DNA from: a virus
Strand: one strand, 5' to 3'
IMG/VR virus record: IMGVR_UViG_3300025276_000023
Coordinates: 1-64,000 of that record
Length of the DNA stretch: 64,000 nucleotides
The notes under the pieces are model-generated. The model saw only the letters and a list, made by a program, of their open reading frames with translations, did not search any database and was not told the DNA's origin. This document shows, one piece after another, positions 27,712-58,250 of this stretch. Made by a program: the position numbers and the translations under genes. Position 1 is the first letter of the stretch, and each line of letters begins with the position of its first letter.

Positions 27712-27740
27712 TTGAGTTATATATCATTAACACGATATGA
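27712..27740 (+). promoter_or_regulatory. Candidate phage promoter (TTGA-TATATCATTAA type)
   Basis: TTGAGTTATATATCATTAAC matches the recurrent element in this genome. It lies just after a terminator and before the 128-aa gene. TTGA and TATAT are only a few bases apart, so it is not a host sigma-70 promoter with normal spacing. Confidence 0.6.
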
Positions 27741-27765
27741 CTTACAATAAACTAAGGAACAAGAT

Positions 27766-28152
27766 ATGTCACAAATAGCAAAAGCAGTTATCGGTACAAT
27801 CGAAGCACAAAAAACACAAATCGCATTAGCAGACTGTTTCCATAGCTGGGACGGTACTGTTGATATTGGTGTTATCGTGTCTGGTTTATCTGATCGTTTC
27901 ACGGCCATGGGTAAAGACGTGGAAGAGATTTCTTTCGAACGTAAAGAATTGAAATCATTGACTGTCTTAGTTGATGGTCGTAGATCAATTGTTTTAACGA
28001 AGACTGATCAGTACATAGGTGGTGCTGGTTATGACTTTAAGAAAGACAATGTCTTTTACACATGGTTCTCTGCAAAGTACGATAACCTCTTCAATAAAGA
28101 AGAGAAAGAGTTAATGACCGAGTGGTTAATGAATAACATGCATAACCTATAG
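27766..28152 (+). CDS. Small hypothetical protein, 128 aa
   Basis: The start has the CTAAGGA SD context seen before many genes under the TATAT-type promoter. The protein is soluble, with no signal peptide; it has a Gly-rich YIGGAGYDF segment near residue 87 and a helical acidic C-terminus. It forms a one-gene unit between promoter 27712 and terminator 28161, as expected for an early or host-takeover gene. Function unknown. Confidence 0.8.
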   Translation: MSQIAKAVIGTIEAQKTQIALADCFHSWDGTVDIGVIVSGLSDRFTAMGKDVEEISFERKELKSLTVLVDGRRSIVLTKTDQYIGGAGYDFKKDNVFYTWFSAKYDNLFNKEEKELMTEWLMNNMHNL

Positions 28153-28160
28153 GTATAATT

Positions 28161-28191
28161 AACCAGTGCTAAAGCGGCGCTGGTTTTTTTT
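28161..28191 (+). terminator. Rho-independent terminator
   Basis: A 9-bp stem AACCAGTGC / GCGCTGGTT (one G-T pair) is followed by eight or more T, 9 bases after the stop. Confidence 0.93.
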
Positions 28192-28203
28192 AAGGAGAAT
28201 CAA

Positions 28204-28713
28204 GTGGCTAAGCTAGTTAGAATTATAAATTTAGAAGACGATACAGTTAATGAGTTTCTAATCGAATGGCCTGTTAAATCATTGGAAATATTAAGTCGTC
28301 AAATGGCTTACTGTTTATCCAATGCAACAGAACATTTATTTGACTTCTCCGACTTCGTTAAATATAAAGCGAACATTAATAACCTTTATCTCTATAAAGT
28401 AATGGCAATGCAAAACTTCAAAATAGAACTTGAAGATATAGCAGATGAGCCTTGTTATATTGAGATAAAAGTCCATCCTAGTTCGCCACCAATATACAGA
28501 ACGTTAAACGATATGTCCTACCAGATAGAAGACATCGTGAGACTTCCTGTATCGTGCGACATGACAGATAAAGATCAAATCAATACAATGATAACCAATT
28601 TCCTAAACACCACTTACATTGCGTTACAGGGCGGTTCATTGAGTTTAAACAAAGTTGGTAAGACACTGTGTGACATTACAGTGGTTCCTAAATTAATTAC
28701 TAAGGTTTCATAA
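28204..28713 (+). CDS. Hypothetical protein, 169 aa
   Basis: GTG start with an AAGGAG SD 7 bases upstream. Soluble mixed alpha/beta protein with no motif I recognise. Its stop overlaps the start of the next gene (TAATG), so the pair is translationally coupled. No promoter of the TATAT type precedes it; it may rely on read-through of terminator 28161 or an unseen promoter. Confidence 0.78.
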   Translation: MAKLVRIINLEDDTVNEFLIEWPVKSLEILSRQMAYCLSNATEHLFDFSDFVKYKANINNLYLYKVMAMQNFKIELEDIADEPCYIEIKVHPSSPPIYRTLNDMSYQIEDIVRLPVSCDMTDKDQINTMITNFLNTTYIALQGGSLSLNKVGKTLCDITVVPKLITKVS

Positions 28714-29150
28714 TGACTAAGAAAGTATCTCTCATCGAATATCAAAAAGACTTCTTCCTTGGAATGGATCATCTGTTCCAACTGTCTCCAGAAGAGATAA
28801 TTGAAGAAGGCGCTAACCATCGCCATATTGCAGTAGACTGTAAAGTAGATGTTAAACCCATGGCTCGTAAAGTTAACTACTCAGTTAACCTAGTGCTTAA
28901 TAAAGACATTGACTGGTCAGGTCTTAATTTCATTAAGCTGGACGTACCACAGTTTACTCAAGCATTGCGAGCACAGTTTGCTTATTCTTTTACACCAGCT
29001 GTTCTAGAGAAGTTGATTCAGAGCATTGAGTCATACTTTGAAGAATCAATTGAAGACATGCCTATTGACTTCATCGAAGGTGTATTCCGTATACATTCTA
29101 AAGAAGGTTACTGGGTTGTTATAACCTCTCCTAAGTACTTAGAATTTTAA
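28713..29150 (+). CDS. Hypothetical protein, 145 aa
   Basis: Coupled to the preceding gene by a one-base overlap. Acidic, soluble, with a helical region at about residues 85-115 flanked by beta-like segments. No motif recognised. The next 95 bases hold a candidate promoter and no gene. Confidence 0.78.
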   Translation: MTKKVSLIEYQKDFFLGMDHLFQLSPEEIIEEGANHRHIAVDCKVDVKPMARKVNYSVNLVLNKDIDWSGLNFIKLDVPQFTQALRAQFAYSFTPAVLEKLIQSIESYFEESIEDMPIDFIEGVFRIHSKEGYWVVITSPKYLEF

Positions 29151-29179
29151 TCTACGTCTTTTCTTTAAATGGAAAGATT

Positions 29180-29208
29180 TTGAAGTATATATAGTAAAGG
29201 TGAGATAG
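29180..29208 (+). promoter_or_regulatory. Candidate phage promoter (TTGA-TATATAGTAA type)
   Basis: TTGAAGTATATATAGTAA followed by GGTGAGATAGA is among the best matches to the recurrent element and closely resembles the copy at 44031. It precedes the tiny membrane-peptide genes. Confidence 0.65.
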
Positions 29209-29245
29209 ATAACTTAAACACTTTAACACTATAGGAAAATAGATT

Positions 29246-29386
29246 ATGTCAGCGTTCAATAAAGGTTTCTTAATCGGTGCAGTTGTTACAACTATGTGTG
29301 CACCTTTCACGTATAAACTCTTCAAGTCAATTGGCGCAGCAGCCGCAGACATTGAAGCAGAAGCAAAGAAAGAAGGAGAGAAGTAA
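29246..29386 (+). CDS. Tiny membrane peptide, 46 aa
   Basis: The ATG follows CTATAGGAAAATAG, a usable SD. The peptide has one hydrophobic segment (about residues 8-30, FLIGAVVTTMCAPFTYKLF), then an Ala-rich, Glu/Lys-rich tail. It resembles phage small membrane proteins of unknown role. The stop overlaps the next start (TAATG). Real because of SD, coupling and amino-acid pattern shared with the following peptides. Confidence 0.72.
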   Translation: MSAFNKGFLIGAVVTTMCAPFTYKLFKSIGAAAADIEAEAKKEGEK

Positions 29387-29526
29387 TGGGAGCACTTAGA
29401 TTCATTGATGGTTACATGGCAGCGGGTTTAGTAATTGGTCTAACTGTTCACTGCACTGCCGCAGTTGTCGGTTTCAAATCGGGTAAGAAAAAAGCTAAGA
29501 AAGAAGCTGAGATTCAAGCCAAGTAA
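29386..29526 (+). CDS. Tiny membrane peptide, 46 aa
   Basis: Overlaps the previous stop and uses AAGGAGAG in that gene's last codons as SD. One hydrophobic segment (about residues 10-31), then a Lys-rich tail GKKKAKKEAE. Same size and layout as the preceding peptide, suggesting a duplicated gene pair. Function unknown; membrane association inferred. Confidence 0.72.
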   Translation: MGALRFIDGYMAAGLVIGLTVHCTAAVVGFKSGKKKAKKEAEIQAK

Positions 29527-29531
29527 ACAAT

Positions 29532-29556
29532 AGGGACTCCGGTCCCTTTCATTTTT
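29532..29556 (+). terminator. Rho-independent terminator
   Basis: A 6-bp stem AGGGAC / GTCCCT with a TCCG tetraloop is followed by TTCATTTTT. Confidence 0.85.
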
Positions 29557-29598
29557 AGAATACAAAACATTTTAACAAAACTTATTAGGAATTACATT

Positions 29599-29775
29599 AT
29601 GAAATTAGCATCAAAAATAGCACTAGGTTTAGCAGGTATCACAGTAACAGCAGCAGCAGTAGTAGTTGCAATGTACTATGGTGAAGACGACAACGATACA
29701 GCAGTTGATTCAGTTGTTGAAGATGTTACTGAAACAGTAGAGTCGGAAGTTGAAGCGACTGTTGAAACTAAGTAA
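29599..29775 (+). CDS. Small membrane peptide with acidic tail, 58 aa
   Basis: The start has a TTAGGA SD about 8 bases upstream. An N-terminal Lys-flanked hydrophobic helix (about residues 7-27, Ala/Val-rich) is followed by a strongly acidic tail full of Asp, Glu, Thr and Val. This looks like a membrane anchor with an acidic tail outside or inside the cytoplasm. It sits between two terminators, so a separate promoter is expected in 29557-29590, but I see no clear match. Confidence 0.72.
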   Translation: MKLASKIALGLAGITVTAAAVVVAMYYGEDDNDTAVDSVVEDVTETVESEVEATVETK

Positions 29776-29781
29776 TCAATC

Positions 29782-29835
29782 GGTAACACCATCTTAACGG
29801 ATGGTGTTACCACCTCTTCTATACTTTATTTTTTT
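29782..29835 (+). terminator. Strong hairpin terminator
   Basis: A 12-bp perfect stem GGTAACACCATC / GATGGTGTTACC with loop TTAACG is followed, after a short gap, by a run of seven T. Confidence 0.85.
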
Positions 29836-29893
29836 GTAACTTTTCATCCATCTAACATATTGTTTGAAACTAACCTTATTATGGAATTTATTA

Positions 29894-30418
29894 ATGCAAG
29901 CAATATTAGCTATATCGCAAGACGGAGCCATTGGTACAGATACTGGTTTACCGTGGAAATGTTCTTTTGATTTGAAATACTTCAAACACTGTACGGAAGG
30001 TAAGACCATCTTAATGGGTCGTAAGACGATGGATACATTAGGTACTCCTTTACCTAATAGAACAAATCTAGTACTGAGTAAGACGTTGCCAGTTGGTGAT
30101 TATAATGGTTTCCAAATCATCGGGTGTCCTAGTCAGTTACCAGAAGACATGAGTGAAATCGTAATCATTGGTGGATTAGAAATATATAAACTGTTTAGAA
30201 AAGACATTAAGAAGATGTCCGTTTCTGTCATCGATGTTTATGACACAGACGCTACAGTCTTTGCAGACATAGCTGCTCTGACTCAAGGTATGAAGTTAAC
30301 AGATATGGTAATGCACCGTCAACGTGGTTTCACTGACATTGGTCGCTCTTTAGGACTAACTAAAAAACAAATCGAAGACACCAACCTTTATTCAATTAAA
30401 ACATACGAGCGTTTCTAA
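29894..30418 (+). CDS. Dihydrofolate reductase, 174 aa
   Basis: Reduces dihydrofolate to tetrahydrofolate with NADPH, supporting thymidylate synthesis. Visible features: N-terminal ILAISQDGAIG, the substrate-site LPWKCSFDLKYFK with the acid D26 (E. coli D27), the cofactor-binding GRKTM (42-46) and IIGGLEIYKLF. Length is normal for bacterial/phage DHFR. I start at ATG 29894 because it gives the canonical N-terminus, although an upstream in-frame ATG exists. Coupled by TAATG to the next gene and followed by thymidylate kinase. Confidence 0.95.
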   Translation: MQAILAISQDGAIGTDTGLPWKCSFDLKYFKHCTEGKTILMGRKTMDTLGTPLPNRTNLVLSKTLPVGDYNGFQIIGCPSQLPEDMSEIVIIGGLEIYKLFRKDIKKMSVSVIDVYDTDATVFADIAALTQGMKLTDMVMHRQRGFTDIGRSLGLTKKQIEDTNLYSIKTYERF

Positions 30419-30984
30419 TGTTAAGAGTCATAACCAGAGAACAGGTAATCCGTGTACTACAGCTAGAAGACATCGCAGACGATCTTAGCAATGCAAAGCT
30501 TGAAGAACTATATTACGATGCAAAAGGTTTACCTACCATCATCGGGTCGCTCTGTCCAATCACTAAAGATAAAGTACGTTACACGTTAGCGATGTCAACT
30601 GCACAGTTACCACTTGATATGCAAACAGCTATCTTAGATTTACCAGATGAACTAAAACCTAAGTTTGTTATGCGTAATCCTGCTACTGAACAAGTGACTA
30701 TTGAACAGTCTATCTTTTACATGTTCTTAAAGAAAGTTGTTAGCGGTAACTACGAAGGTAAGAATCCAGAAAAGACAATGAAGTTAATGGAGCAAAGTAA
30801 AATACTTCGTACCAATATCGGCACTGATAAAATAGAAGATGAGTTAGTTGTTGTCTTCCCTAAAAACACAAAGCGCGTAACTGATAGATTCTTAAGTGCC
30901 TTTGTAGAACAAGAAATCAAAACTATTAAAGTAGTTAAAAACGGCAAGGTCATAAAAGAGGTTAAACACGATGTTGAATACTAA
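30418..30984 (+). CDS. Hypothetical protein in the DHFR-thymidylate kinase operon, 188 aa
   Basis: Starts on the last base of the DHFR stop and overlaps the thymidylate kinase start by 14 bases, so all three are translationally coupled. The protein is soluble, with charged helical N- and C-terminal parts and a very Lys/Val-rich C-terminus. I recognise no enzyme motif. Tight coupling suggests a role in nucleotide metabolism or its control, but this is inference only. Confidence 0.82.
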   Translation: MLRVITREQVIRVLQLEDIADDLSNAKLEELYYDAKGLPTIIGSLCPITKDKVRYTLAMSTAQLPLDMQTAILDLPDELKPKFVMRNPATEQVTIEQSIFYMFLKKVVSGNYEGKNPEKTMKLMEQSKILRTNIGTDKIEDELVVVFPKNTKRVTDRFLSAFVEQEIKTIKVVKNGKVIKEVKHDVEY

Positions 30985-31585
30985 ACCACGTTTAATATTT
31001 GTAGACGGAATCGATGGAAGCGGTAAGAGCACAACTGTCTCTCAGCTAAAGGTTATATTAGGTGGGGATAATCCTGAGAACATTAAGACGTGTTCATTCC
31101 CAGGACATAATGACTTTGGTCAGATGACTCGACCTTGGTTTGTTAATGACAGTCAACCAGAACACATTAAGTTATTTGCTATCCTTACTGAGTTCTCCAT
31201 TTTCATGGAAGACTACTTAAACGGTAAGTACAACGATTACACTCACGTTATCTGTGACCGTTTCATTTTATCTACTATTCATCAGACTAACTCAGATAGT
31301 CGTTTCATTGAAACAGTGAAAGAGATAGTTAAACATTACGATTTACATTACTATCTATATTTCATCACTACCCTTACATCTGACGATTGTCTTAAACGTT
31401 TAGAGCAGCGCGGTGATATCAATGGGGGCGATAGAAAGGCATTGGCCGAAGCAGAACGTACCAACTTCATTGATTATGCTGATAGATTAGGTTTCCGTTG
31501 TTCTCTTGTACAGTTAGAAAACTCAGGTACCAAACTAGATCTATTCAATCGTCTAGATTCATTCTTTGAGCAAAATCCAAAATAG
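30971..31585 (+). CDS. tmk: Thymidylate kinase, 204 aa
   Basis: Phosphorylates dTMP to dTDP. The P-loop DGIDGSGKST (12-21) and the DR motif CDRFILSTIHQTN (D96, R97) are those of thymidylate kinases, and the length is normal. An AGAGG SD in the preceding gene's 3' end supports the start. With DHFR it shows that the phage supplements host dTTP production; no thymidylate synthase is in the window. Confidence 0.92.
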   Translation: MLNTKPRLIFVDGIDGSGKSTTVSQLKVILGGDNPENIKTCSFPGHNDFGQMTRPWFVNDSQPEHIKLFAILTEFSIFMEDYLNGKYNDYTHVICDRFILSTIHQTNSDSRFIETVKEIVKHYDLHYYLYFITTLTSDDCLKRLEQRGDINGGDRKALAEAERTNFIDYADRLGFRCSLVQLENSGTKLDLFNRLDSFFEQNPK

Positions 31586-31588
31586 AAA

Positions 31589-31620
31589 GAGAGGAGCGCA
31601 ATGCTCCTCTCCTTATGTTT
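31589..31620. terminator. Bidirectional terminator
   Basis: A 9-bp stem GAGAGGAGC / GCTCCTCTC with loop GCAAT, followed by CTTATGTTT, lies between the convergent thymidylate kinase and holin genes. Confidence 0.87.
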
Positions 31621-31963
31621 GTTTCTTTGGTTGTTCATCTGCTTCTGTGACCAGTAACGTTTTAGTATTAGAACGATTCTTCTCTCTGTAGCCAAACGTA
31701 AGTACCGCACCGAACGCTAGATGGATTATACTTCCACTATCTAGCGTAATGGGTATGTAATTCTTACGTCGCTTTAGAAACGCTATCTGTTCCTCTGAGG
31801 ACATTAGTTTAATTATCTCCATCTCATCATCACTGAATGTTATCTCTCTATTTTCATAGTAGAAAGGTAACACCAGCAAGTCAAAGACAACGACCATCGT
31901 ATAAATAAACGCAACGCCTCCAAGCCACTTCTCAGTCATCCAATTAAAAACATTACCCTTCAT
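31613..31963 (-). CDS. Probable holin, 116 aa
   Basis: Two hydrophobic segments: about residues 12-37 (WLGGVAFIYTMVVVFDLLV) and about 68-93 (GSIIHLAFGAVLTFGY), with a charged helix between them and a charged C-terminus. The pattern and place directly downstream of the Rz/Rz1 genes fit a phage holin of the 3TM or GTA type, which forms the membrane hole that releases endolysin. I start at 31963, where a GGAGAGG SD lies 4 bases upstream; the longer frame (31999) lacks one. It overlaps the Rz stop by 11 bases. Confidence 0.65.
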   Translation of the reverse strand: MKGNVFNWMTEKWLGGVAFIYTMVVVFDLLVLPFYYENREITFSDDEMEIIKLMSSEEQIAFLKRRKNYIPITLDSGSIIHLAFGAVLTFGYREKNRSNTKTLLVTEADEQPKKQT

Positions 31964-32513
31964 TGACCTCTCCAGTAATTGATCTGTTATATTTATCAAC
32001 TAACTCAAGATAAAGTTTAACTGTATTTTGACAGGCCGTTAGTTTTTCAACGACTCCGTTTGCTGCGGTTGCTTCTCTGATAAGGAATCGAGAAGTTTCT
32101 GTAGGAAGATAGGTTGTTCTGTTTCCATCATCGCAGGACTGGGGAGTGGTAGATATAGCGGTTCCTGTTTCAATGGGGTCTCCCTCACCGATGTTGACTC
32201 GCAACCTAAAATTGTCAGACTCAAGACCGTCAATAGCAGACTCATACTTTTCTTGCTGTTCATTTATTCTCTCCTGATATTGTTTAGTTAACAGTTCACT
32301 TGCAGTTATACCTGCTTGGCGTTCTTGTGCAAGGTCATTCTTTAATTTAAGTATCGCATCTTCTTTTTCTGAAACCATTTGGTTGTATTTTAAAAGAAGT
32401 TTATCTTTCATGGTACTGGCACCGTGATTATAAATCAGCGTAGTGTATATACCAAGTACCACTAGCGTGATAATAGATATGGCCAGACGACTGCTGAGAA
32501 AGGACTTTATCAT
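31953..32513 (-). CDS. Rz: Inner-membrane spanin (Rz-like), 186 aa
   Basis: An N-terminal membrane anchor (about residues 10-28, LAISIITLVVLGIYTTLI) is followed by a long periplasmic coiled coil (about 38-100, rich in Glu, Gln, Lys). The rest is a looser C-terminal part. This is the layout of Rz-type i-spanins, which join the outer-membrane o-spanin to fuse the envelope membranes in the last step of lysis. A GGAG SD precedes the start. The o-spanin gene is nested inside it in another frame, as in classical Rz/Rz1 pairs. Confidence 0.88.
   Translation of the reverse strand: MIKSFLSSRLAISIITLVVLGIYTTLIYNHGASTMKDKLLLKYNQMVSEKEDAILKLKNDLAQERQAGITASELLTKQYQERINEQQEKYESAIDGLESDNFRLRVNIGEGDPIETGTAISTTPQSCDDGNRTTYLPTETSRFLIREATAANGVVEKLTACQNTVKLYLELVDKYNRSITGEVNEG
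32039..32263 (-). CDS. Rz1: Outer-membrane lipoprotein spanin (Rz1-like), nested in Rz
   Basis: Seventy-four codons lie wholly inside the Rz gene in a different frame. The start has an ideal AGGAGAG SD. The N-terminus is a lipoprotein signal peptide: KK, then a hydrophobic stretch, then the lipobox ILGC, so Cys21 would be lipidated. The mature part is Pro-rich and short (PLYLPLPSPAMM), typical of Rz1 o-spanins. It would be easy to dismiss as a shadow ORF, but SD, lipobox and context support it. Confidence 0.88.
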   Translation of the reverse strand: MNSKKSMSLLLTVLSLTILGCESTSVRETPLKQEPLYLPLPSPAMMETEQPIFLQKLLDSLSEKQPQQTESLKN

Positions 32514-32514
32514 T

Positions 32515-33711
32515 CTATTCTCCGTGGATTAAGTATTCGTAGAGGTGTTCAGTGTCGATTCTATCAACTGGCTTCTTAACCATTTTAACTGTTTTCTGCA
32601 ATTTCCATCTGCTATCAGACAAACGATAATCTTCTAATAGACAAGTTGTGCTATATGCTATCGTATTTGCATTGTCTTCTTTTCTGTAGATATGCTTTAT
32701 TATCTGACCAGTGGCATTTAGTATTGGATTGTTTAACTTAGTCCCTATAAAGGCGATGTTAGTATTTGCCATGTTTTCTAACTTACGCTTTCTCACATAA
32801 ACAGTTTGTCTGTTGATATAGCCAGCAAATGTATGTGGTAGATCCATTACACGTTTAAACGTATCGTCCGATAATAATTCTTTAACTGAATAAATATCGT
32901 TATCGCCAATTGTCAAGCCTACATCTTCTGGTTTTATGATACCGTCCGCAATGGCACGTAGAATACGTTCACCAATGTTGTCTATATCTATTTCGATATA
33001 TCTATCTGCCACTAGCTTTATAGATTGACTATTTTCAGTTAATATGAACAATTGCCCCAAGATTACAATAAACGGAGTAATTCCTTTAGTCACTTCCTTA
33101 CCTAAACGATAGTAGCATGTGCCGTCTGATATGTTCGATACATTCTCCGATGTAACGTCCGTCAGTGCAATCCCGCCTAAGTTAGTGAAATCTAAAACAT
33201 CTAAATCTAACATACCTCCTTTTAAATAAGAACGGTTAGCTCCTAACAGATATAGATAGTCTGTATTGCTAAGTTGTCTGTGTATATATCCGTTTACGCT
33301 GAACAGTGCATTGTTAGCCACTTCCTGAGCAATGTCAGGTAATCTCATTGCAATGTCATCAAACAGCTCAATGGGACGTTTGTCTTCAATTGAACCGGTT
33401 GCATTGGTAGGTATTAGTAAATGCATTGCAGTGCTTAGGTTTTGTTGTTTAACGGTCTTAGTAGTGACAAGCTCTGGATCAGCAACTGTATCATAACCGT
33501 CATAGGTTCTATCCGCCATCCATTCATAAAAAGGAATATCTAACTCAGTTAAGTTAGGTAATTTCTTAAGGTTGAGATAACGATGGTCTTTACCAATTAA
33601 TACCTGAAACATACATACATCGTACTGGTACAAATCCTTTAAAGACGTCCCTACGCTAATCGTATAGAATTCATTTTCTTTAGGGTCGATTACGTGAATT
33701 GCTAATAACAT
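32515..33711 (-). CDS. Hypothetical protein upstream of the spanins, 398 aa
   Basis: I start at 33711, where AGGAAG lies about 7 bases upstream; the open frame continues to 33819 but would overlap the divergent fibre gene. The protein is beta-rich, with FSVNGYIHRQ and YLLGANRSYLKGG segments in its middle and no signal peptide or membrane segment. The Rz start follows its stop by one base. Probably a virion structural protein; it could also be an accessory expressed with the lysis genes. Confidence 0.75.
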   Translation of the reverse strand: MLLAIHVIDPKENEFYTISVGTSLKDLYQYDVCMFQVLIGKDHRYLNLKKLPNLTELDIPFYEWMADRTYDGYDTVADPELVTTKTVKQQNLSTAMHLLIPTNATGSIEDKRPIELFDDIAMRLPDIAQEVANNALFSVNGYIHRQLSNTDYLYLLGANRSYLKGGMLDLDVLDFTNLGGIALTDVTSENVSNISDGTCYYRLGKEVTKGITPFIVILGQLFILTENSQSIKLVADRYIEIDIDNIGERILRAIADGIIKPEDVGLTIGDNDIYSVKELLSDDTFKRVMDLPHTFAGYINRQTVYVRKRKLENMANTNIAFIGTKLNNPILNATGQIIKHIYRKEDNANTIAYSTTCLLEDYRLSDSRWKLQKTVKMVKKPVDRIDTEHLYEYLIHGE

Positions 33712-33757
33712 ATTTTTACTTCCTGATTTTATGACAATTTGAATATAAGGCATCGTT

Positions 33758-35554: not shown

Positions 35555-35564
35555 GAGGTGACGA

Positions 35565-37232: not shown

Positions 37233-37238
37233 CATAAA

Positions 37239-40365: not shown

Positions 40366-40397
40366 CATAGCTGGAGGGACTTGTTCCCTCCTCTATG
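40366..40397 (+). terminator. Terminator, CATAG/CTATG-bracketed stem
   Basis: A 7-bp stem GGAGGGA / TCCCTCC is extended at its base by complementary CATAG and CTATG. It follows the endolysin stop directly and lacks a T-run. Confidence 0.8.
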
Positions 40398-40930: not shown

Positions 40931-40959
40931 TTGAAAACTATATCATTAACAGGATAACA
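40931..40959 (+). promoter_or_regulatory. Candidate phage promoter (TTGA-CTATATCATTAA type)
   Basis: TTGAAAACTATATCATTAAC followed by AGGATAAC matches the copy at 27712 in CTATATCATTAAC-like core and in the downstream AATAAACTAA. Confidence 0.62.
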
Positions 40960-40991: not shown

Positions 40992-41348
40992 ATGAACTCA
41001 GAACAAATTAAAGTGCAACTCACACTTTTTTGCGAAATGTATGATCTAAAGCCAACTGATTTCCTAATCAAAGGCGAAGCTAACTGGACTCTACGTGGAG
41101 AGATATTCACAACAGATGAAATAGAGTTAGTGGCTAGTAAGAAAACAATTGATAAGATGTTTAAAGAGCACGGTACTCTTCGTCGCTTTGAAACATTTTC
41201 TTCTCCACCAGTTAAAGCATGTAAAAGCATTTACTTCACTGGACTTACAATTGAAGTAGGTACAGTTAAAGACTTTAGTACAGAAGATGGTATTCAATTA
41301 CTATTGACTAAAGAAGAAGAAATTCAAATGGGAATGACATCATGGTAG
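40992..41348 (+). CDS. Hypothetical protein, 118 aa
   Basis: The start has the CTAAGGA SD. Soluble, mixed; short strand-like repeats in the C-terminal half (IYFTGLTIEVGTV). First gene of a four-gene unit ending at terminator 43294. Overlaps the next gene by 7 bases. Function unknown. Confidence 0.78.
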   Translation: MNSEQIKVQLTLFCEMYDLKPTDFLIKGEANWTLRGEIFTTDEIELVASKKTIDKMFKEHGTLRRFETFSSPPVKACKSIYFTGLTIEVGTVKDFSTEDGIQLLLTKEEEIQMGMTSW

Positions 41349-43293: not shown

Positions 43294-43333
43294 AGAGGGG
43301 ATTGATTTCCCCTCTTTTATCAATGTTTTTTTT
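43294..43333 (+). terminator. Rho-independent terminator
   Basis: An 8-bp stem AGAGGGGA / TCCCCTCT, loop TTGATT, followed by TTTTATCAATG and a run of eight or more T. Confidence 0.88.
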
Positions 43334-43342: not shown

Positions 43343-43370
43343 TTTAACACACATATCCTAAACGTGAATT
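43343..43370 (+). promoter_or_regulatory. Candidate phage promoter (degenerate TATAT type)
   Basis: ACATATCCTAAACGTGAATT aligns with the copy at 58218 (TATATCATAACAGTGAGTT). It sits between a terminator and the start of the membrane-protein gene. Confidence 0.5.
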
Positions 43371-43392: not shown

Positions 43393-43980
43393 ATGGTAAA
43401 TATAAGTTTAGAGAAGTATTCAGAGCTACAGAAAAGATACTTGTTAAAAGGTCTGGTTTCAGGCTTTACAGGTACGCTACTGATTGCTGTTCTAACGATG
43501 GAGATAGTAAGTAACTTTTCAACAGACATTATTCTACTAAAGAATTATCTAATGAATGTTCCAATGATACTAATCCTAGTACCTTGTATAAAACACCTGA
43601 TTAAGAAACATCCGATTAACTGTTACCGACTAAAAGGAATACTGAGCATAGCAGGTTTAGTCATGCTTGTGTTTGTAGAGATCTTTGGTCTAAGTAAGAA
43701 TTGGTATTTGGTAGATGCGGCTATCGTTAGCCTAGGAGGGTTGTTAATGATGACACATAACAGTTACTATAAAGCATGTGTTAATAATAAATGTAAAGAC
43801 TTCTCTGAGATGTGTGGCTATGTAGAACTATTCACTAATCTTACTTATGTATTTGTAGGTGTTGCCATTGTAGCTATGGATATACCCACTCTAGTAATAT
43901 TGTCGCTAGCCCTTCCATTGGAATGTATAGAACGTTATCTAGAAAACAAATGTGCGTATGAGGTATATACGACTAGTTGA
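43393..43980 (+). CDS. Multi-pass membrane protein, 195 aa
   Basis: The start has an AAGGAA SD. Hydrophobic stretches near residues 16-36, 48-65, 78-93, 100-117 and 147-178 suggest five or six membrane passes. Cys/Lys-rich loops (ACVNNKCKDFSEMCGYVE) lie in the C-terminal half. Such phage inner-membrane proteins are sometimes superinfection-exclusion or host-takeover factors, but nothing in the sequence shows this. It is alone between its promoter and a terminator. Confidence 0.82.
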   Translation: MVNISLEKYSELQKRYLLKGLVSGFTGTLLIAVLTMEIVSNFSTDIILLKNYLMNVPMILILVPCIKHLIKKHPINCYRLKGILSIAGLVMLVFVEIFGLSKNWYLVDAAIVSLGGLLMMTHNSYYKACVNNKCKDFSEMCGYVELFTNLTYVFVGVAIVAMDIPTLVILSLALPLECIERYLENKCAYEVYTTS

Positions 43981-43983: not shown

Positions 43984-44014
43984 AAGGGGCATTGTGCCCC
44001 TTAGTTCTTTTTTG
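43984..44014 (+). terminator. Rho-independent terminator
   Basis: A 7-bp stem AAGGGGC / GCCCCTT with loop ATTGT, followed by AGTTCTTTTTT, starts 4 bases after the stop. Confidence 0.88.
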
Positions 44015-44030: not shown

Positions 44031-44060
44031 TTGAGATCTATATAGTAAATATGAGATAAC
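44031..44060 (+). promoter_or_regulatory. Candidate phage promoter (TTGA-CTATATAGTAA type)
   Basis: TTGAGATCTATATAGTAA followed by ATATGAGATAAC is the closest match to the copy at 29180. It lies just after a terminator, and the leader contains CTTAAAC as in the 29180 unit. Confidence 0.66.
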
Positions 44061-44090: not shown

Positions 44091-44423
44091 ATGAAAGAAT
44101 TTAACGTAACAGTAGTCGTTGGTAAAGAAAGCGAATTTGGCGGTCAAGACTTTGCAGAGTTTAATATTCCACTATTACTTATAGATAAACCAGATGACCT
44201 GTCTCTTTATCTTACGAGCGTTGACGTTGCTTCTACCTGGGCTGCTAATTCATTCGACCCTGATATGCTAGGTTGCTTACGTAAACAGTTACGTAAAGTA
44301 GCTAAGATAGATATCAGTGAATGTACTAGCGAACAAGAAGCGCTTGACGTTGTAGTTAACCATGAAGACTTCGATGCCATATATGAATATACGTTTGACC
44401 TTACCATCACAGCAATTAAATAA
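44091..44423 (+). CDS. Hypothetical protein, 110 aa
   Basis: The start has a CTAAGGA SD. Acidic, soluble; beta strands at the N- and C-termini surround a helical middle. One-gene unit between the promoter at 44031 and the hairpin at 44431. Function unknown. Confidence 0.78.
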   Translation: MKEFNVTVVVGKESEFGGQDFAEFNIPLLLIDKPDDLSLYLTSVDVASTWAANSFDPDMLGCLRKQLRKVAKIDISECTSEQEALDVVVNHEDFDAIYEYTFDLTITAIK

Positions 44424-45610: not shown

Positions 45611-45651
45611 AACAGCTTCCGCCATGGAAGCTGTTAGTTTTATTTTTTTTT
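45611..45651 (+). terminator. Rho-independent terminator
   Basis: A perfect 10-bp stem AACAGCTTCC / GGAAGCTGTT with loop GCCAT is followed by AGTTTTATTTTTTTTT. Confidence 0.93.
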
Positions 45652-45660: not shown

Positions 45661-45690
45661 ATTATAAATCTATATTATTGATGTAGTATA
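45661..45690 (+). promoter_or_regulatory. Candidate phage promoter (degenerate CTATAT type)
   Basis: ATAAATCTATATTATTGATGTAGTATATAACC shares the CTATATTAT core with the copy at 55541 but lacks a clear GTGAGAT box. It lies between a terminator and the next gene. Confidence 0.48.
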
Positions 45691-45710: not shown

Positions 45711-46100
45711 ATGTGCATACTTAGACCAGTAAATGGTCAGGACGATTTAGAATATGTAGTTATCGTAACTCAGTTCACGCAAGAAGAATATGATTCTTTC
45801 TATAAATCTGGTTCAGTTACTTTGTTTATGATCGACTCCATAGAAACATTAAAACTGAAGATAGCTAAAATTTCTAAGATATTGTCAGATTCATTCACTG
45901 CTACATATTTCGGTGCAGATATCTTTCACTATTTACTATTGCTACCTTGTCTAGTGTCTAAAGAAGCAGAGGACCATGAAGCCAGTATAGTTAACATGAC
46001 TGTTATGTTTTTAGATTCTGTGCTGAGAATAAGAGTGTCCCATAACGATGAAGAATACCAAGACATGACTGTCCATACAAGAACCAAAACACTACACTAA
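45711..46100 (+). CDS. Hypothetical protein, 129 aa
   Basis: The ATG follows an ACTAAGGA SD 8 bases upstream. Soluble, mixed; a helical middle and basic C-terminus. First of a cluster of four (45711-47494). Function unknown. Confidence 0.76.
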   Translation: MCILRPVNGQDDLEYVVIVTQFTQEEYDSFYKSGSVTLFMIDSIETLKLKIAKISKILSDSFTATYFGADIFHYLLLLPCLVSKEAEDHEASIVNMTVMFLDSVLRIRVSHNDEEYQDMTVHTRTKTLH

Positions 46101-46571: not shown

Positions 46572-47309
46572 ATGAAGAAGTTAGTCATCTCACTTGACAT
46601 GGAAACAAACAATCACAACAAGCCTCGTTTAGATATAGGCGGTAACGTTGAGATAGGTGTTTTAAAAACAGCGCTATTGGAAATAGGCTTTATAGTTTAT
46701 GAACAAGAAATACAAAACGGTAAAGTAACACTTACTGAAGTATTGCGCCATCAGTCTTATATATATAACCCCGCTCCAGCAGTATGGGTAGAAGCTCCTC
46801 CAATCGTTCTAGAGTTACATACCAAGTCTGGTTTCAAGCCATTGTACGATCAGTTCGTTAAAGACTGTGAATATAACTCAGTTGCTAAAAACACATACAG
46901 CGAACAAGTAGTTGATGAGTATGCTGCTGCTATATTAGAAGATTTGTTACGTACTAAATATCCTAAGTTATTTGATCGTGCCCTATACGAATCAGGTAAT
47001 CTCCACGCACTGACTGTCGTCGGTAAAAACGTCCAGTTCGATATCGGTTTCATGAATACAAGATTGCCTAGAACAGCGATGTTCTTTAACTATCAGGTAA
47101 TCGATGTGTCTATGATGCGTAACATGCTCAGATCTTTGGGTAACGATAAGCTAAAAGGAATCAGTAAAACTAAATCTACTCACTTTGCAATAGATGACTG
47201 TGAATCGGCTACAGCTGACTATAAAGCTACCTTAGAAGTCTTCTTAGAGAAATTCCCTGATACTGTGGAATATTTCCAACAATACAAACAGAACCAGGAA
47301 CCGCTATGA
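46572..47309 (+). CDS. DEDDh-family 3'-5' exonuclease, 245 aa
   Basis: RNase T/DnaQ-type exonuclease fold. Motif I is SLDMETNNHN (D9, E11). Motif II is NVQFDIGFMNTRL (D157) and motif III HFAIDDCESATADY (H204, D208/D209), the HxAxxD form of DEDDh enzymes. It may degrade RNA or DNA ends, process phage transcripts, or proofread; the substrate is not told by the sequence. The next gene overlaps its stop by 4 bases. Confidence 0.92.
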   Translation: MKKLVISLDMETNNHNKPRLDIGGNVEIGVLKTALLEIGFIVYEQEIQNGKVTLTEVLRHQSYIYNPAPAVWVEAPPIVLELHTKSGFKPLYDQFVKDCEYNSVAKNTYSEQVVDEYAAAILEDLLRTKYPKLFDRALYESGNLHALTVVGKNVQFDIGFMNTRLPRTAMFFNYQVIDVSMMRNMLRSLGNDKLKGISKTKSTHFAIDDCESATADYKATLEVFLEKFPDTVEYFQQYKQNQEPL

Positions 47310-48189: not shown

Positions 48190-48320
48190 AAAGTATTATT
48201 TTACACACCCTCGATATAGTTTGAGGAATTTATTTCTCCCCATTGTTTGTCAAAACAATGGTAGAGGGAGGAGCGAAGCGACAACAACAGAACTAAGTTA
48301 ACACTTAGAAGGAAAGAGTT
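48190..48320 (+). other. Structured intergenic leader with hairpin and AT-rich element
   Basis: This 131-base gap holds TCGATATAGTTTGAGG (48211-48226), a loose match to the TATAT-type promoter, then a 9-bp stem CCATTGTTT / AAACAATGG (48240-48261, loop GTCA), whose flanks CTCCC and GGGAG can extend it. No T-run follows, so it looks like a 5' leader structure rather than a terminator. Confidence 0.55.
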
Positions 48321-48857: not shown

Positions 48858-48858
48858 T

Positions 48859-49870: not shown

Positions 49871-49871
49871 A

Positions 49872-51106: not shown

Positions 51107-51107
51107 C

Positions 51108-52166: not shown

Positions 52167-52172
52167 ACTACT

Positions 52173-52202
52173 ATGACTCTACTCCGGTAGAGTCATTTAT
52201 TT
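52173..52202 (+). terminator. Hairpin terminator
   Basis: A perfect 10-bp stem ATGACTCTAC / GTAGAGTCAT with a TCCG tetraloop is followed by TTATTT. Confidence 0.85.
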
Positions 52203-52213
52203 AAGGAAAGATT

Positions 52214-53202: not shown

Positions 53203-53828
53203 ATGAACAATTAGAAATGAGTGAAGCGCAGCTGGTAGACTTGAAGCGCCTGATAACAGAAGAAGGTAAGTTGACTTATGAGTTTTTTAATCTAACTCTA
53301 ACATTTAACTCTCCTATTCTAACAGGTGCTTTAGAGAAGATCATTGAACTGGAAAACATTTCAGTAATAGATGCTGACTATGTTAAGAAAGCGTCGGTGA
53401 TTGAAGAATACTTAGATGATAATTATGGCATCGAAGTAATGAATGGTCAAGTACTGGGTACTGAACATGCGGAAATGATGTCAACTGGTAAAACAACACT
53501 TGCTTTCAAAGACAATGGTTTTTTCTATAACGAGCTTTATAAACAAATACGATCTAAGGTTTGTTATTCTGTTTCGCCAACCGCTCTGTATTATGTTTAC
53601 TTAGCTTTCTTTAAAGAAGCCGTCGTTAAACAAGTGCCTAAGATTGATGTTATCAATTCTAGACATCGCGATTACTTTGAAAAGTCATTTGCTGAGCTAA
53701 CAGGGGTAATGATACTTGAACTAGATAAACATTATGAAGGTATAGCTTATAGAGATTTGAAGACAGAAGAAGATCGGATGATCAAAGAAGTCATCCAGTT
53801 ATATAAAGAAAACAACGGGACCCTATAG
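53196..53828 (+). CDS. Hypothetical protein, 210 aa
   Basis: An AAAGGA SD lies about 11 bases upstream. Acidic, mainly helical; the segment EEYLDDNYGIEVMNGQVLG (around residue 70) resembles the modules at 8075/19660/23547. Overlaps the next gene's GTG start by one base. Confidence 0.76.
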   Translation: MVNEQLEMSEAQLVDLKRLITEEGKLTYEFFNLTLTFNSPILTGALEKIIELENISVIDADYVKKASVIEEYLDDNYGIEVMNGQVLGTEHAEMMSTGKTTLAFKDNGFFYNELYKQIRSKVCYSVSPTALYYVYLAFFKEAVVKQVPKIDVINSRHRDYFEKSFAELTGVMILELDKHYEGIAYRDLKTEEDRMIKEVIQLYKENNGTL

Positions 53829-54217
53829 TGAAGATTTTATACCTATTAATAATTGCCATCTTAGCATCTGTAAGTTACGATTATTATACTCGTTACAATG
53901 AACTGTACGACAATGACATCATACGTTTCTATATAACGTATGACATTATCTCAGTGGAAGACTGTAATGAGAAAGGCTGTGAGGCGATTGTACAGCAGTC
54001 AGGAGAAAATAAACAAGAGTTACTTTTTATCAAAAGTCTATCTTCCATGCCTTTTATTATACGCAAGCCTGTCGTGCGTCAATGTAGCAATGTAATCTCC
54101 ACTAAAGTAGTGACGTGTGAAAAAGACTTACGTTCTCTAGAAGACCTAGAACTTAAGTATGCTAAACATAAAGACTGGGATCTTCGCCCAGCCGCTTCTC
54201 AGATAATTTATCAATAA
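53828..54217 (+). CDS. Single-pass membrane or exported protein, 129 aa
   Basis: GTG start overlapping the previous stop. N-terminal hydrophobic segment (about residues 3-16, ILYLLIIAILASV) followed by a soluble, Cys-containing domain with paired Cys (CNEKGCE and later CSNVIS, CEK). A signal anchor or uncleaved signal peptide is likely, giving an inner-membrane protein with a periplasmic domain that could hold disulfides. Confidence 0.76.
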   Translation: MKILYLLIIAILASVSYDYYTRYNELYDNDIIRFYITYDIISVEDCNEKGCEAIVQQSGENKQELLFIKSLSSMPFIIRKPVVRQCSNVISTKVVTCEKDLRSLEDLELKYAKHKDWDLRPAASQIIYQ

Positions 54218-54228
54218 GGAATAGAAAG

Positions 54229-54567
54229 ATGGAAACAGAACAACAGAAGATTCTCCGTTTGCTAGGTGTGAGCGCAACATCATTTTATACAGATGAATAT
54301 CAGCGTATCTTCACCACCTTATCAAATAGTAATGTTGATGTGGTGTTCTCAAATGAACATCAAGGGTTGGGTAATCGTGAGAACTGCATAAATAAAGGCT
54401 TTGCTTACGTACAGCTACATTACTTATTTTCATTAGTGATCAATGAACAGTTCATTGAAGAAAATGCAATAGAATACATTAATTGTGAAAGAGAGTCGTT
54501 CACAATTGCTCTTGTGTTCAATGGTCAGTATGTGACCGTAACATTTAAAGCAAATGTCGACTCCTGA
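54229..54567 (+). CDS. Hypothetical protein, 112 aa
   Basis: The start has a TAAGGA SD. Soluble, mixed; a Cys/Arg-rich middle. Overlaps the next gene by 14 bases. No motif recognised. Confidence 0.76.
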   Translation: METEQQKILRLLGVSATSFYTDEYQRIFTTLSNSNVDVVFSNEHQGLGNRENCINKGFAYVQLHYLFSLVINEQFIEENAIEYINCERESFTIALVFNGQYVTVTFKANVDS

Positions 54568-55225
54568 TAGACGAAGGTATAGAGGCGTCACTAAGTCATT
54601 AGGTGGCGTCTTATATACTGGCATTTCACCAGAGATGGGTAGGGAACTATATCTCACGGTAAGCGCGCGGCTAGAACTATTCAATGAAGATCTATTTTGG
54701 TACGATAAACTAAATACCTTTCCTTTATGGAAGGCTAAGTTTAAGACCATCAAAGAAGCATATATCCAATTGGATACAGAATACGTTAGAGACAAAACAT
54801 TTTTAGGTTCTTCTAAAATGGAAAGACAGTTAACGATATCTAAAATCCTAAACCAGCACTACTCTAAAATATTTAAAGTTGAACTGTCAGACAAGCCATG
54901 TCAAAACGACGTACATGCGTCACATGAATATGGATTAGCAAGCTATCTTCTCGAAGCGAAAGAACACTTAAAGTTACCCGATAAGTATATCAAATTAGCT
55001 AAAAGTTTCTACTCTTCATCGACATCCACTGACAACTTCAATCAACCAGCAATCGTAGCTCTTTCTAGATTAGAAAATGGTTTTACTTTAGGTAAATATC
55101 AAGCCCTTAAAACTTTAAACTATAGACTTGAGGCTCTGGCTAATGGGAGACTAGAAAATCTTCTAATTGAAGTCAAACAGCTTGAGATGATAAGAGGATG
55201 GAAAGATGGAAACAGTTCAGTCTAA
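54554..55225 (+). CDS. Hypothetical protein, 223 aa
   Basis: Coupled to the previous gene by overlap; weak SD. Basic N-terminus (RRRYRGVTKS), then mixed, mainly helical. Could bind nucleic acid through its basic N-terminus, but there is no motif. Overlaps the next gene by 20 bases. Confidence 0.75.
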   Translation: MSTPDRRRYRGVTKSLGGVLYTGISPEMGRELYLTVSARLELFNEDLFWYDKLNTFPLWKAKFKTIKEAYIQLDTEYVRDKTFLGSSKMERQLTISKILNQHYSKIFKVELSDKPCQNDVHASHEYGLASYLLEAKEHLKLPDKYIKLAKSFYSSSTSTDNFNQPAIVALSRLENGFTLGKYQALKTLNYRLEALANGRLENLLIEVKQLEMIRGWKDGNSSV

Positions 55226-55481
55226 ACTACTCAACGCGGTTAATGTAGCATTTAGTAACAATCCCCTTCCTTGGCTAGCGTTTCATAAACGACGTCAGCG
55301 AAAAGAAGTGCTACGCATAATCGATGTAAGCTATGAAAACGGTTTTCATGAATATAGAACTTCTCTAGAGGAACTACATAATCTAAATGAACTGGGTCAC
55401 TTCACTAAAGACTCTCGCTCATTTCAGTCAGTCATGGCGGTCATTGAAACGGGCGTTCAAGGTACAGCCAGTATCTACTAA
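55206..55481 (+). CDS. Hypothetical protein, 91 aa
   Basis: The start has an AGAGG SD in the previous gene. Basic patch HKRRQRKEVLRI near residue 27, possibly nucleic-acid binding. Last gene before terminator 55483. Confidence 0.74.
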   Translation: METVQSKLLNAVNVAFSNNPLPWLAFHKRRQRKEVLRIIDVSYENGFHEYRTSLEELHNLNELGHFTKDSRSFQSVMAVIETGVQGTASIY

Positions 55482-55482
55482 C

Positions 55483-55524
55483 ATAGAAGCTCCCATTATG
55501 GGGGCTGTCTATTTTTTTATTTTT
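55483..55524 (+). terminator. Rho-independent terminator
   Basis: A 7-bp stem AGCTCCC / GGGGGCT (one T-G pair) with outer complementary ATAGA/TCTAT is followed by ATTTTTTTATTTTT. Confidence 0.9.
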
Positions 55525-55540
55525 GTGTAATAGAATATTT

Positions 55541-55570
55541 TTTAAAACTATATTATAACTGTGAGATAGA
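55541..55570 (+). promoter_or_regulatory. Candidate phage promoter (CTATATTATAA type)
   Basis: TTTAAAACTATATTATAACTGTGAGATAGA has the CTATAT core and the GTGAGATAGA box shared with the 29180 copy. It directly follows a terminator. Confidence 0.62.
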
Positions 55571-55602
55571 AGTCTCATTACTGTTTAACTTAAGGAGAGT
55601 TC

Positions 55603-55641
55603 ATGTTATACCATTTATTAATCTAGAGGAATTAATCCTCT
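55603..55641 (+). promoter_or_regulatory. Leader mini-ORF (7 codons) overlapping an attenuator-like hairpin
   Basis: An AAGGAG SD is followed by ATG and six sense codons (MLYHLLI), then TAG. The stop lies in a 6-bp stem AGAGGA / TCCTCT with loop ATTAA (55625-55641). Ribosomes reading or stopping at the mini-ORF would open or leave the hairpin, which precedes the SD of the 182-aa gene. Regulatory role is inference. Confidence 0.4.
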
Positions 55642-55659
55642 TAGTTTGAGGAAACGATT

Positions 55660-56208
55660 ATGATACAACAACACCAAGCAAATAGTTCAGTTTTACAAAA
55701 TGAGCTATGGAGTAAAATAACACATCTAGTAACTGATTTAGATGTTAATCCATTAAAGCGTTCTGACAGTATTTATGAACTAGCTTCCCTTTCACAGCTT
55801 TACCATGAAAGACAAGCTAAAATAAATACAGTAGACGTTACACGATTTAAAGATAATGAAACATTACTTAAATCAACAATGCGACGTAAGATAGTTTTAC
55901 ATTATTCGGATAACCCTGCTGAGCAAGGTGAATGGATAGTGGACTTTCTAAAAATTAACCGTAAACGTATATCTACAACAGAACTGACTGCTAAGAAGTT
56001 TGACTTTAAAAAGCAACTAATAGTTGAATACATCTTTTGTAATATACAATCACTTGACGTTATACCTGAGTTGTTTAATGTGTATGGAACCGAATTTAGC
56101 AACTGTGAACTCTATCTTATCATTGACGATAAGGTACAGCCAGTCTATAGTAAATATCGTTCATTCACCGTAAAGAATGCAGGAGACCTAGTAAGGAAAT
56201 TTAACTAA
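55660..56208 (+). CDS. Hypothetical protein, 182 aa
   Basis: The start has a TGAGGAA SD. Soluble, mainly helical, Gln/Asn-rich N-terminus (IQQHQANSS). No family recognised. The stop overlaps the next start (TAATG). Preceded by the mini-ORF leader. Confidence 0.77.
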   Translation: MIQQHQANSSVLQNELWSKITHLVTDLDVNPLKRSDSIYELASLSQLYHERQAKINTVDVTRFKDNETLLKSTMRRKIVLHYSDNPAEQGEWIVDFLKINRKRISTTELTAKKFDFKKQLIVEYIFCNIQSLDVIPELFNVYGTEFSNCELYLIIDDKVQPVYSKYRSFTVKNAGDLVRKFN

Positions 56209-56597
56209 TGAAGAATGCCTTAACCAGGGCGGAACTGAAGCGCAGCCGCGCTTCAGAACTCACCATAGTTTTAATAGTGGGAACAGGACCAACGTATCAG
56301 CAGAGAGCAGCAGTATCTATCATTGAAGCGTTGATAGCAAAACATGAACGTACTACATTCAATACTCTATTTGACCCAGATGTAGTTAATCATTTATTTG
56401 AATTAAGACGACAGGCTATATTGAAAAGATTCTTAATTGTTCGCGTTGAAGAAAACATGTTGGAAGAAGCTATCCAATTCATCGACCGAGGCTTTGTAAA
56501 CTTTAAAAGTCAAATAAAGCAGTATAAAGATATTGATATACTGAATAAAGTATCGTTCAATCGAGACCTTGCAAGAAAAGAAATCCATAGCAGATAA
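56208..56597 (+). CDS. Hypothetical protein, 129 aa, with an in-gene GC hairpin
   Basis: The start has an AAGGAA SD. Basic, with VLIVGTGPTYQQRAAV around residue 23, a Gly-rich loop that superficially resembles a nucleotide loop but is not a P-loop. The 5' end of the gene (56235-56256) forms a perfect 9-bp GC-rich stem CTGAAGCGC / GCGCTTCAG, unusual in this AT-rich sequence. Function unknown. Confidence 0.76.
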   Translation: MKNALTRAELKRSRASELTIVLIVGTGPTYQQRAAVSIIEALIAKHERTTFNTLFDPDVVNHLFELRRQAILKRFLIVRVEENMLEEAIQFIDRGFVNFKSQIKQYKDIDILNKVSFNRDLARKEIHSR

Positions 56598-56669
56598 AAA
56601 CATTAATCGAAAAGATTTCATGTATTTAATATTAACATGGCGATGATGCCATTGGGGGGTACCTTAAAA

Positions 56670-57287
56670 ATGAAAGAACCAATGACTCCGTTAGTTAAAC
56701 AGCTAATGGTCTTCGATCACACCTATCGGTACAGTGATTCTTTATCTACTTATAACCATTGGGAAGCAGTTGAACGGAAGCTTAAAGCTAATATAGCTGA
56801 GATTCCAGATAAAGCTACTCGTGACATATATACAGCAGCCCTGTGCGGTAACGTAGAGCCTTTAATAGCTAAGTATGGTACATTGAGTCAGGAGACTGTA
56901 CGAGTCTGTCAGGAAGAACTACAGGAACGATTAAGCACTATAAAAAGTTATCATCTATTCTTAGCTTTTCTAAATGATCTTGCAAACATCATGGGAAAGT
57001 ATATCCCACCACAGCAAGGTATCGTTTATACCAAATATGCTCCAGCAGCACAGAAGATTGACGGTAAGATTTCAATACCTGAAAGTCAGCAGTTGGAACT
57101 AAATGATTTAATAGAGAGAACGAACACTACCCTCTTTAGAGACGTGGAGAAAATACGTTTCAAATTAAAGTTACCATCGACTACTGTTTCATTATCCTGT
57201 TATACTCGAACAGATAATTTAACTCATTTCAGATTCATAACAGCAGAGAATAATACTCATGCTGACTTTGAATTATATTTAAACTAA
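56670..57287 (+). CDS. Hypothetical protein, 205 aa
   Basis: I start at 56670, with a GGGGGG SD 10 bases upstream; an in-frame ATG at 56637 lacks an SD. Soluble, mixed; the helical first two thirds are followed by a strand-rich end. No motif recognised. Coupled to the next gene through a 9-base gap. Confidence 0.76.
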   Translation: MKEPMTPLVKQLMVFDHTYRYSDSLSTYNHWEAVERKLKANIAEIPDKATRDIYTAALCGNVEPLIAKYGTLSQETVRVCQEELQERLSTIKSYHLFLAFLNDLANIMGKYIPPQQGIVYTKYAPAAQKIDGKISIPESQQLELNDLIERTNTTLFRDVEKIRFKLKLPSTTVSLSCYTRTDNLTHFRFITAENNTHADFELYLN

Positions 57288-57296
57288 GGAAACAAA

Positions 57297-58211
57297 ATGT
57301 ATATACTTAACAGCATCGATTTAAATGGAACGTCACTAGTTAGTCTAGCACTTCGTTTAGAGGATTCAATTGAGAATGTTCTACTACAATGGGTAGACGA
57401 GGACGACGTTACAGAGGACATGGTCTGTTGTCTTTTCAATGAAGACACTAAGATGCTTGAATCTCCAGAAGGCATTGTACTGGCAGAAGTTATTAGCGTT
57501 ACAGAAGATGATGGTACTTATCATTTAGCATCTGGCGTTTATCCTGGTGCTGGTTTGTTTTCAGTGGTTGAAGAACTTAACTTCACATTCTGCACTCACT
57601 TAGGGTCTCATCTTCCATCTGATGTAAAGAGCATTGACTGCGATTACTCGCCAGTAACGATGTCACCATTAGCTTACACTGAAACACTTGAGTGTAAGAA
57701 GTTGATGGATGAAAGTACAGAAGAGTACTTCGCTATTTCTTTTGAACCAGCTACTCGTAACAGCATGAGTTCTGAAGACGCCGCAATTAGTATTGCGTTT
57801 AATAACCATATGTTCTATCAGTATTTTGGACATGTGACATTACCTGGCAATAGACATCGCTTTGTAAGTTTCGATGTGCCGATATCTGTCAACCAAACAA
57901 CTGCCCTGCTTTCTTTGCAGAACGATGCAGAAATATTTGAACGTAAAGCAGACATTAAGATAAACTTCATTGCCGAAGAACTCAAGGTAACTAAGTTGCT
58001 AGATGTTTATACGGTTAAAGCTACAGTGATGTTAATCTATCCATTCGTAGTAGAAAAAGAAATCCTACAATACAGAAGCCTAGACGATATTGTTTCTAAT
58101 CCTTTTGAGTTGGATGAAGATATAATTTCTATACTGGTAGAATCAGCAGCAAGTGAAAGCTTACATTCATTGAAGTCTGCTATCCATGAAAAATCAATTG
58201 ATAATTTATAA
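57297..58211 (+). CDS. Hypothetical protein, 304 aa
   Basis: The start has an AAGGAAA SD. Acidic, mainly beta-rich, no signal peptide. Several VSVTED-like strand segments suggest repeated beta-domains. No family recognised. Last of its unit before the promoter at 58218. Confidence 0.78.
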   Translation: MYILNSIDLNGTSLVSLALRLEDSIENVLLQWVDEDDVTEDMVCCLFNEDTKMLESPEGIVLAEVISVTEDDGTYHLASGVYPGAGLFSVVEELNFTFCTHLGSHLPSDVKSIDCDYSPVTMSPLAYTETLECKKLMDESTEEYFAISFEPATRNSMSSEDAAISIAFNNHMFYQYFGHVTLPGNRHRFVSFDVPISVNQTTALLSLQNDAEIFERKADIKINFIAEELKVTKLLDVYTVKATVMLIYPFVVEKEILQYRSLDDIVSNPFELDEDIISILVESAASESLHSLKSAIHEKSIDNL

Positions 58212-58217
58212 TGCAAA

Positions 58218-58250
58218 TTAAGTAAGGTATATATCATAACAGTGAGTTAA
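58218..58250 (+). promoter_or_regulatory. Candidate phage promoter (TATATCATAAC type)
   Basis: TTAAGTAAGGTATATATCATAACAGTGAGTT contains the core and GTGAG box. Only about 85 bases separate it from a hairpin at 58336, so a short RNA or leader is possible. Confidence 0.58.

Follow-up and report, generated by a model that had tools for sequence, protein, structure and literature searches.

The recurrent intergenic elements described here are very probably early promoters of a phiKZ-like jumbo phage, read by the phage's own virion RNA polymerase (vRNAP). We analysed a window of 64,000 bases, comprising bases 1-64000 and thus about half of a 129,102-base IMG/VR fragment, together with the remainder of the record. 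The element is enriched in this DNA, is confined in strand and place, and matches known promoters, and vRNAP genes are present in the same record. The initial annotation had proposed a promoter class ahead of small genes in the window; its observation largely holds and is partly confirmed. The element is a new case of a known type of switch, as reviews of such phages predict, and it defines a candidate early regulon for an uncultured phiKZ-like phage that lacks close database relatives.

The record derives from a phiKZ-like phage

The source of the DNA is an uncultured phiKZ-like jumbo phage. Homologues of several phiKZ proteins are encoded in the record: the terminase, tail sheath, portal, baseplate protein and protease, together with the RecA-like protein gp152, RNase H and the helicase gp203. 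Gene calling with a simple home-made script, rather than Prodigal, gave 133 genes, 114 of them on the plus strand. The contig begins inside the gene for the homologue of gp123, a subunit of the second phage polymerase (nvRNAP). The initial annotation had named a virion RNA polymerase as a possible reader of the element and suggested looking for polymerase genes elsewhere in the genome; a BLAST-type comparison with phiKZ found homologues of three vRNAP subunits.

40-624, plus strand: C-terminal part (last third) of a homologue of phiKZ gp123, nvRNAP beta subunit (BLASTP E=3e-15)
3480-5993, minus strand: homologue of the phiKZ portal/virion structural protein gp129 (PHROG 3004 E=1.7e-160; BLASTP E=1.9e-75)
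Record 70712-71410: homologue of gp149, vRNAP subunit (E=1e-31)
Record 89046-90719: homologue of gp180, vRNAP subunit (E=4e-83)
Record 90700-94896: homologue of gp178, vRNAP subunit (E=2e-167)

A homologue of gp80, searched for alongside these subunits, was not found in the 129-kb fragment. One of the vRNAP subunits is at most 40% identical to those of known phages (Proteus phage 10), and the terminase reaches at most about 40% (Xanthomonas phage LucasX, Erwinia phage SNUABM_54, Vibrio phage pVa-21). The phage collection held no near DNA match to the record. Among viral contigs, we found no set of close relatives for phylogenetic footprinting: one carries an identical vRNAP subunit and the rest are distant. 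Since this identical subunit lies on a 42.8-kb contig of a separate IMG/VR record (IMGVR_UViG_3300009428_000016), the phage recurs. A search of the record for Rfam families found none.

A shared element precedes small genes

A shared stretch can be read at all eight positions that the initial annotation had listed, and the following elements were delimited in the window.

27712-27734, plus strand: candidate early promoter TTGA-GTTA-TATATCAT-TAACAC-G, aligned on the core (profile 23.4 bits); predicted +1 at 27734, then gene 27766-28152 (128 aa, unknown)
29180-29202, plus strand: candidate early promoter TTGA-AGTA-TATATAGT-AAAGGT-G (29.5 bits); predicted +1 at 29202, then two 46-aa ORFs from 29246
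40931-40953, plus strand: candidate early promoter TTGA-AAAC-TATATCAT-TAACAG-G (27.4 bits); predicted +1 at 40953, then gene 40992-41348
43344-43366, plus strand: weaker element TTAA-CACA-CATATCCT-AAACGT-G, a member of the de novo motif that lies below the final profile threshold and fits the 6N-G layout; predicted +1 at 43366, then gene 43393-43980
44031-44053, plus strand: candidate early promoter TTGA-GATC-TATATAGT-AAATAT-G (32.5 bits; also compared with phiKZ); predicted +1 at 44053, then gene 44091-44423
45663-45685, plus strand: weaker element TATA-AATC-TATATTAT-TGATGT-A, a member of the de novo motif (sub-threshold profile score 13.5); then gene 45711-46100
55541-55563, plus strand: candidate early promoter TTTA-AAAC-TATATTAT-AACTGT-G (29.7 bits); then gene 55660-56208
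58222-58244, plus strand: candidate early promoter with a poor TTGA part, TATATCAT-AACAGT-G (26.7 bits); predicted +1 at 58244, then a 41-aa ORF at 58390
Record, beyond the window: 73155, 78683, 98155 (weak), 103325, 103779 and 128257

The consensus first written for these sites proved too narrow. The strict form TTGA-N(2-5)-TATATNNTAA has just two exact matches in the window, at 29180 and 44031; TTGA is weak or missing at 45661 and 58218, and 43343 has CATAT. The element is better described as TTnA-N4-TATATNNT-N6-G. Because the strict pattern fits only two of the eight sites, the main test was run without it.

As had been suggested, the upstream intergenic regions were subjected to a de novo motif search, with hairpins masked and a home-made expectation-maximisation script in place of MEME. 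The ribosome binding site and TTGAaAtCTATAT..TAAA.GTGA came out as the two strongest motifs, the second of them with a log-likelihood of 107.7, compared with 74-84 for the best motif in each of ten dinucleotide-shuffled sets. Six strong sites then seeded a profile that was iterated along the whole record on both strands, with gene positions ignored. It found 12 sites on the plus strand and none on the minus strand, with 0.2 expected per strand in order-3 Markov sequence; this null model, like the shuffles, retains only short-range composition. Eleven of the 12 sites are intergenic, although intergenic DNA makes up only about 5% of the record. The remaining match, at 121583 inside the terminase gene, was treated as probably due to chance. 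Three weaker sites (43352, 45671 and 98155) have the same layout. A strict IUPAC search of viral contigs with CTATATNNTAANNNTGAGAT returned 94 stretches; those listed are single matches and mostly chance, and the search was discarded as evidence.

The 14 sites have the cores TATATCAT (five), TATATAGT (four), TATATTAT (four) and CATATCCT (one). The sixth base after the core, the predicted +1, is G in 12 sites and A in two, and T precedes it in 11. In 13 of the 14 sites, a start codon with a ribosome binding site follows 21-48 bases downstream of the predicted start. The GTGAGAT that had been said often to follow the element is exact only at 29180 and 55541; judging from the alignment, it would comprise the last bases before the predicted start and the first transcribed bases. 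No element precedes the portal homologue at 3480-5993 or the sheath, terminase (TerL), tail and vRNAP genes, in line with the earlier remark that the appendage, fibre and portal genes lack it. None of the scanned proteins encoded behind or close to the elements matched a Pfam or PHROG family. A 245-aa protein (46572-47309) within the operon behind the 45663 element weakly resembles exonuclease subunits of phage DNA polymerases.

It had also been claimed that most elements directly follow a terminator. The hairpin scan bears this out for five of the eight sites and found no clear hairpin before 29180, 40931 and 58218. Hairpins relevant to the elements include the following.

27678-27697, plus strand: terminator hairpin, then TTTATG, upstream of the 27712 element
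43294-43315, plus strand: terminator hairpin upstream of the 43344 element
43984-44002, plus strand: terminator hairpin with T-run upstream of the 44031 element
45611-45635, plus strand: terminator hairpin with T-run upstream of the 45663 element
58559-58638, plus strand: two T-run hairpins, predicted end of the transcript from 58244

The element has the layout of known early promoters

In phiKZ, the octamer TATATTAC occurs 33 times on the plus strand and nine times on the minus strand, and with G after six bases 25 times versus once. A refined phiKZ profile gave 32 sites, all on the plus strand and 30 of them intergenic, which is close to the 28 phiKZ early promoters given in a 2026 review (PMC13282480). 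The consensus of 22 phiKZ sites and that of the window align at zero offset, with a score reached by none of 5000 column permutations. Both phages share TTnA-N4-TATAT, the 6-base spacing to G(+1), T at -1 and the intergenic position on the plus strand ahead of small genes. The window element at 44031 and the phiKZ site at 57984, upstream of gp68, have TTGAGATCTATAT in common, including TTGAGATC-TATAT; phiKZ 44922 reads TTGAGATC-TATATCAT, a core also present in this record. The likeness to phiKZ claimed at the outset thus holds for the layout but not for the literal core: phiKZ almost always has TATATTAC, which is found in none of the 14 sites, whereas here TATAT is followed mostly by AGT, CAT or TAT, so that the core is less uniform. 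From +1 onwards, the sites here often read GAGATA or GATA, unlike phiKZ.

According to a review of these polymerases, every jumbo phage that encodes RNA polymerases has an AT-rich motif near -10 that varies by phage, and those tested turned out to be early promoters (PMC7598289). The promoter sets of AR9 and phiR1-37 are backed by RNA-seq (PMC5312081, PMC4848604). Counting the promoters that are annotated within the first 50 kb of the two records, eight of eight AR9 early promoters and eight of nine phiR1-37 promoters have G after exactly six bases. These phages share the TATATTAT core with four sites here, among them the 55541 element, whose core is the phiR1-37 early core. The upstream TTnA part is not common to them, and AR9 has AAAT directly before the core. 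In both genomes, uracil replaces thymine. LucasX and Special G showed no TATAT-N6-G motif in their first 50 kb; these phages may rely on a different early motif, or that part of their genomes may contain few early genes.

Vibrio phage pVa-21 resembles the left end of the window in gene order, with an RNAP beta subunit followed by a portal-type protein on the opposite strand. A de novo search of its first 50 kb returned the motif TATATCAT-TAaGTG, and the whole-genome profile found 24 sites, 22 intergenic and 23 on the plus strand. This motif, itself predicted from sequence, shares TATATCAT-N6-G, T at -1, intergenic position and plus strand with the element here, where five sites carry TATATCAT, but its upstream part is TTCAGATA or similar and not TTGAnATC. 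In pVa-21, operons that contain RNAP beta-type subunits and lie outside the vRNAP cluster follow the sites at 12253, 191802 and 204768, and the profile placed no site before the virion-RNAP-matching genes at 149360-155165. The nvRNAP genes are early in phiKZ. The pVa-21 arrangement, with elements ahead of nvRNAP operons, is as in phiKZ; the present record starts inside the gp123 homologue.

Together with the three vRNAP subunit homologues, the match to the early-promoter layout supports the phage polymerase as reader. We infer the reader, the exact start site and the early timing from these comparisons. The vRNAP would be packed into the phage head, enter the cell along with the DNA, recognise the AT-rich element through TTnA at about -22 to -19 and TATATNNT at -14 to -7, and start RNA at the G six bases past TATATNNT. 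Short operons of small, mostly unknown proteins would thereby be transcribed at the onset of infection. Phages with polymerases of only about 33% identity have kept TTnA-N4-TATAT, the 5' half of the early promoter, along with the spacing of six bases, while the core has drifted in its 3' half; this pattern helps to predict the first-acting genes in the cell.

Host or late polymerases are improbable readers

Recognition by the bacterial polymerase through a sigma-70 -10 box alone would account for part of the core. TATAGT, TATCAT and TATTAT each match TATAAT in five of six bases, TATNNT at -12 to -7 does so in 13 of the 14 sites, and the predicted +1 lies at the normal distance. The earlier case against sigma-70, that TTGA and TATAT are too close, is therefore weaker than proposed: spacing alone is insufficient, since TATNNT itself resembles a -10 box. 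What stands is that no -35 box rises above background, as the best match to TTGACA at a spacing of 15-19 averages 3.07 of 6 compared with 2.98 at random intergenic positions. The extended -10 TG is absent, and neither the conserved TTnA (-22 to -19) nor the first TA of TATAT has a role in sigma-70 recognition. Moreover, transcription of phiKZ early genes, which have the same promoter layout, is independent of the host polymerase (PMC7598289). We consider host promoters very unlikely.

The phage does possess an nvRNAP gene (the gp123 homologue at 40-624), and the elements could in principle be its late or middle promoters. However, the known late promoters of nvRNAP carry just TATG at the start, and the middle promoters of phiKZ have AAanTTACc at about -24 (PMC4666361); the element is unlike both classes and fits the early one, which makes this assignment highly improbable. 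The stretch lies some tens of bases ahead of start codons, and some leaders have AACTTAAACA in common, which might instead point to an operator or an RNA leader signal. Against this, the same stretch is an early promoter in three related phages, the core is constant while the leader sequence downstream varies, and no feature was found that favours such a signal over a promoter. It is hardly credible as an explanation, and vRNAP early promoters remain our preferred reading.

TATG follows hairpins in phiKZ-like phages

GC-rich hairpins followed by TATG within a few bases occur at 3452-3472, 27678-27697, 31589-31611, 40373-40391 and 62261-62282, and at about 20 more places in the record. TATG, which forms the core of phiKZ late promoters, follows 28 of 88 hairpin sides here (1.7 expected; 16-fold) and 81 of 272 in phiKZ (6.4 expected). 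In 50-kb samples, the counts were 17 versus 0.6 expected for LucasX, 6 versus 0.5 for pVa-21 and 10 versus 0.3 for Special G. The excess is thus 11-38-fold across five phiKZ-like phages, in which TATG ranks first or second among the 4-mers enriched after hairpins; it is absent in T4 (0), AR9 (1) and phiR1-37 (0). A late promoter was weighed as an explanation and not preferred. A terminator suits the pattern better, because hairpin-TATG is commonest between converging genes (30 of 48 sides in phiKZ), often on both sides of the hairpin; moreover, the best-studied phiKZ late promoter, p119L, has no hairpin at its TATG.

With early operons classed by promoter type, the ratio of T-run to TATG hairpins at the ends of early versus other operons was 8:6 versus 6:40 in phiKZ (Fisher 0.0018), 4:2 versus 6:17 in this record (Fisher 0.14) and 16:1 versus 23:6 in pVa-21 (Fisher 0.23, not significant alone). 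As the contrast was first noticed in this record, phiKZ and pVa-21 are the fairer tests. Pooled, TATG rather than a T-run marks non-early operon ends with an odds ratio of 6.5 (p=0.00025), mainly from phiKZ. Hairpins at 80223 and 107687, between converging genes, have a T-run on the plus side and TATG on the minus side.

A tentative reading is that the two phage polymerases use separate signals: vRNAP may start at TTnA-N4-TATATNNT-N6-G and stop at T-run hairpins, and nvRNAP may start at TATG and stop at a hairpin that has TATG within about four bases after it. If so, a single four-base motif would serve both start and stop of the second polymerase. The pattern bears on how a polymerase that needs only TATG picks its sites, and this side result may be more important than the promoter finding. 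We found no mention of it in the literature searched, which covered few subscription journals and not the main paper on the phiKZ transcriptome.

Further features of the record

An exact 86-base repeat occurs at 48215-48300 and at record 104280-104365, with 56 kb between the copies. It has a strong predicted hairpin, and each copy lies upstream of a small gene, the two genes being unrelated. The repeat had no match among phage records, nor its 21-base core among viral contigs.

Small ORFs directly behind early elements at record 103376 (42 aa) and 73194 (156 aa) were missed by the length and overlap rules of gene calling. The predicted early transcript at 58244-58640 is about 350-390 bases long, with a long leader, an internal hairpin and two T-run terminators, and its 41-aa ORF at 58390 looks membrane-bound. 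This region may be a small-protein or RNA gene overlooked by ordinary annotation.
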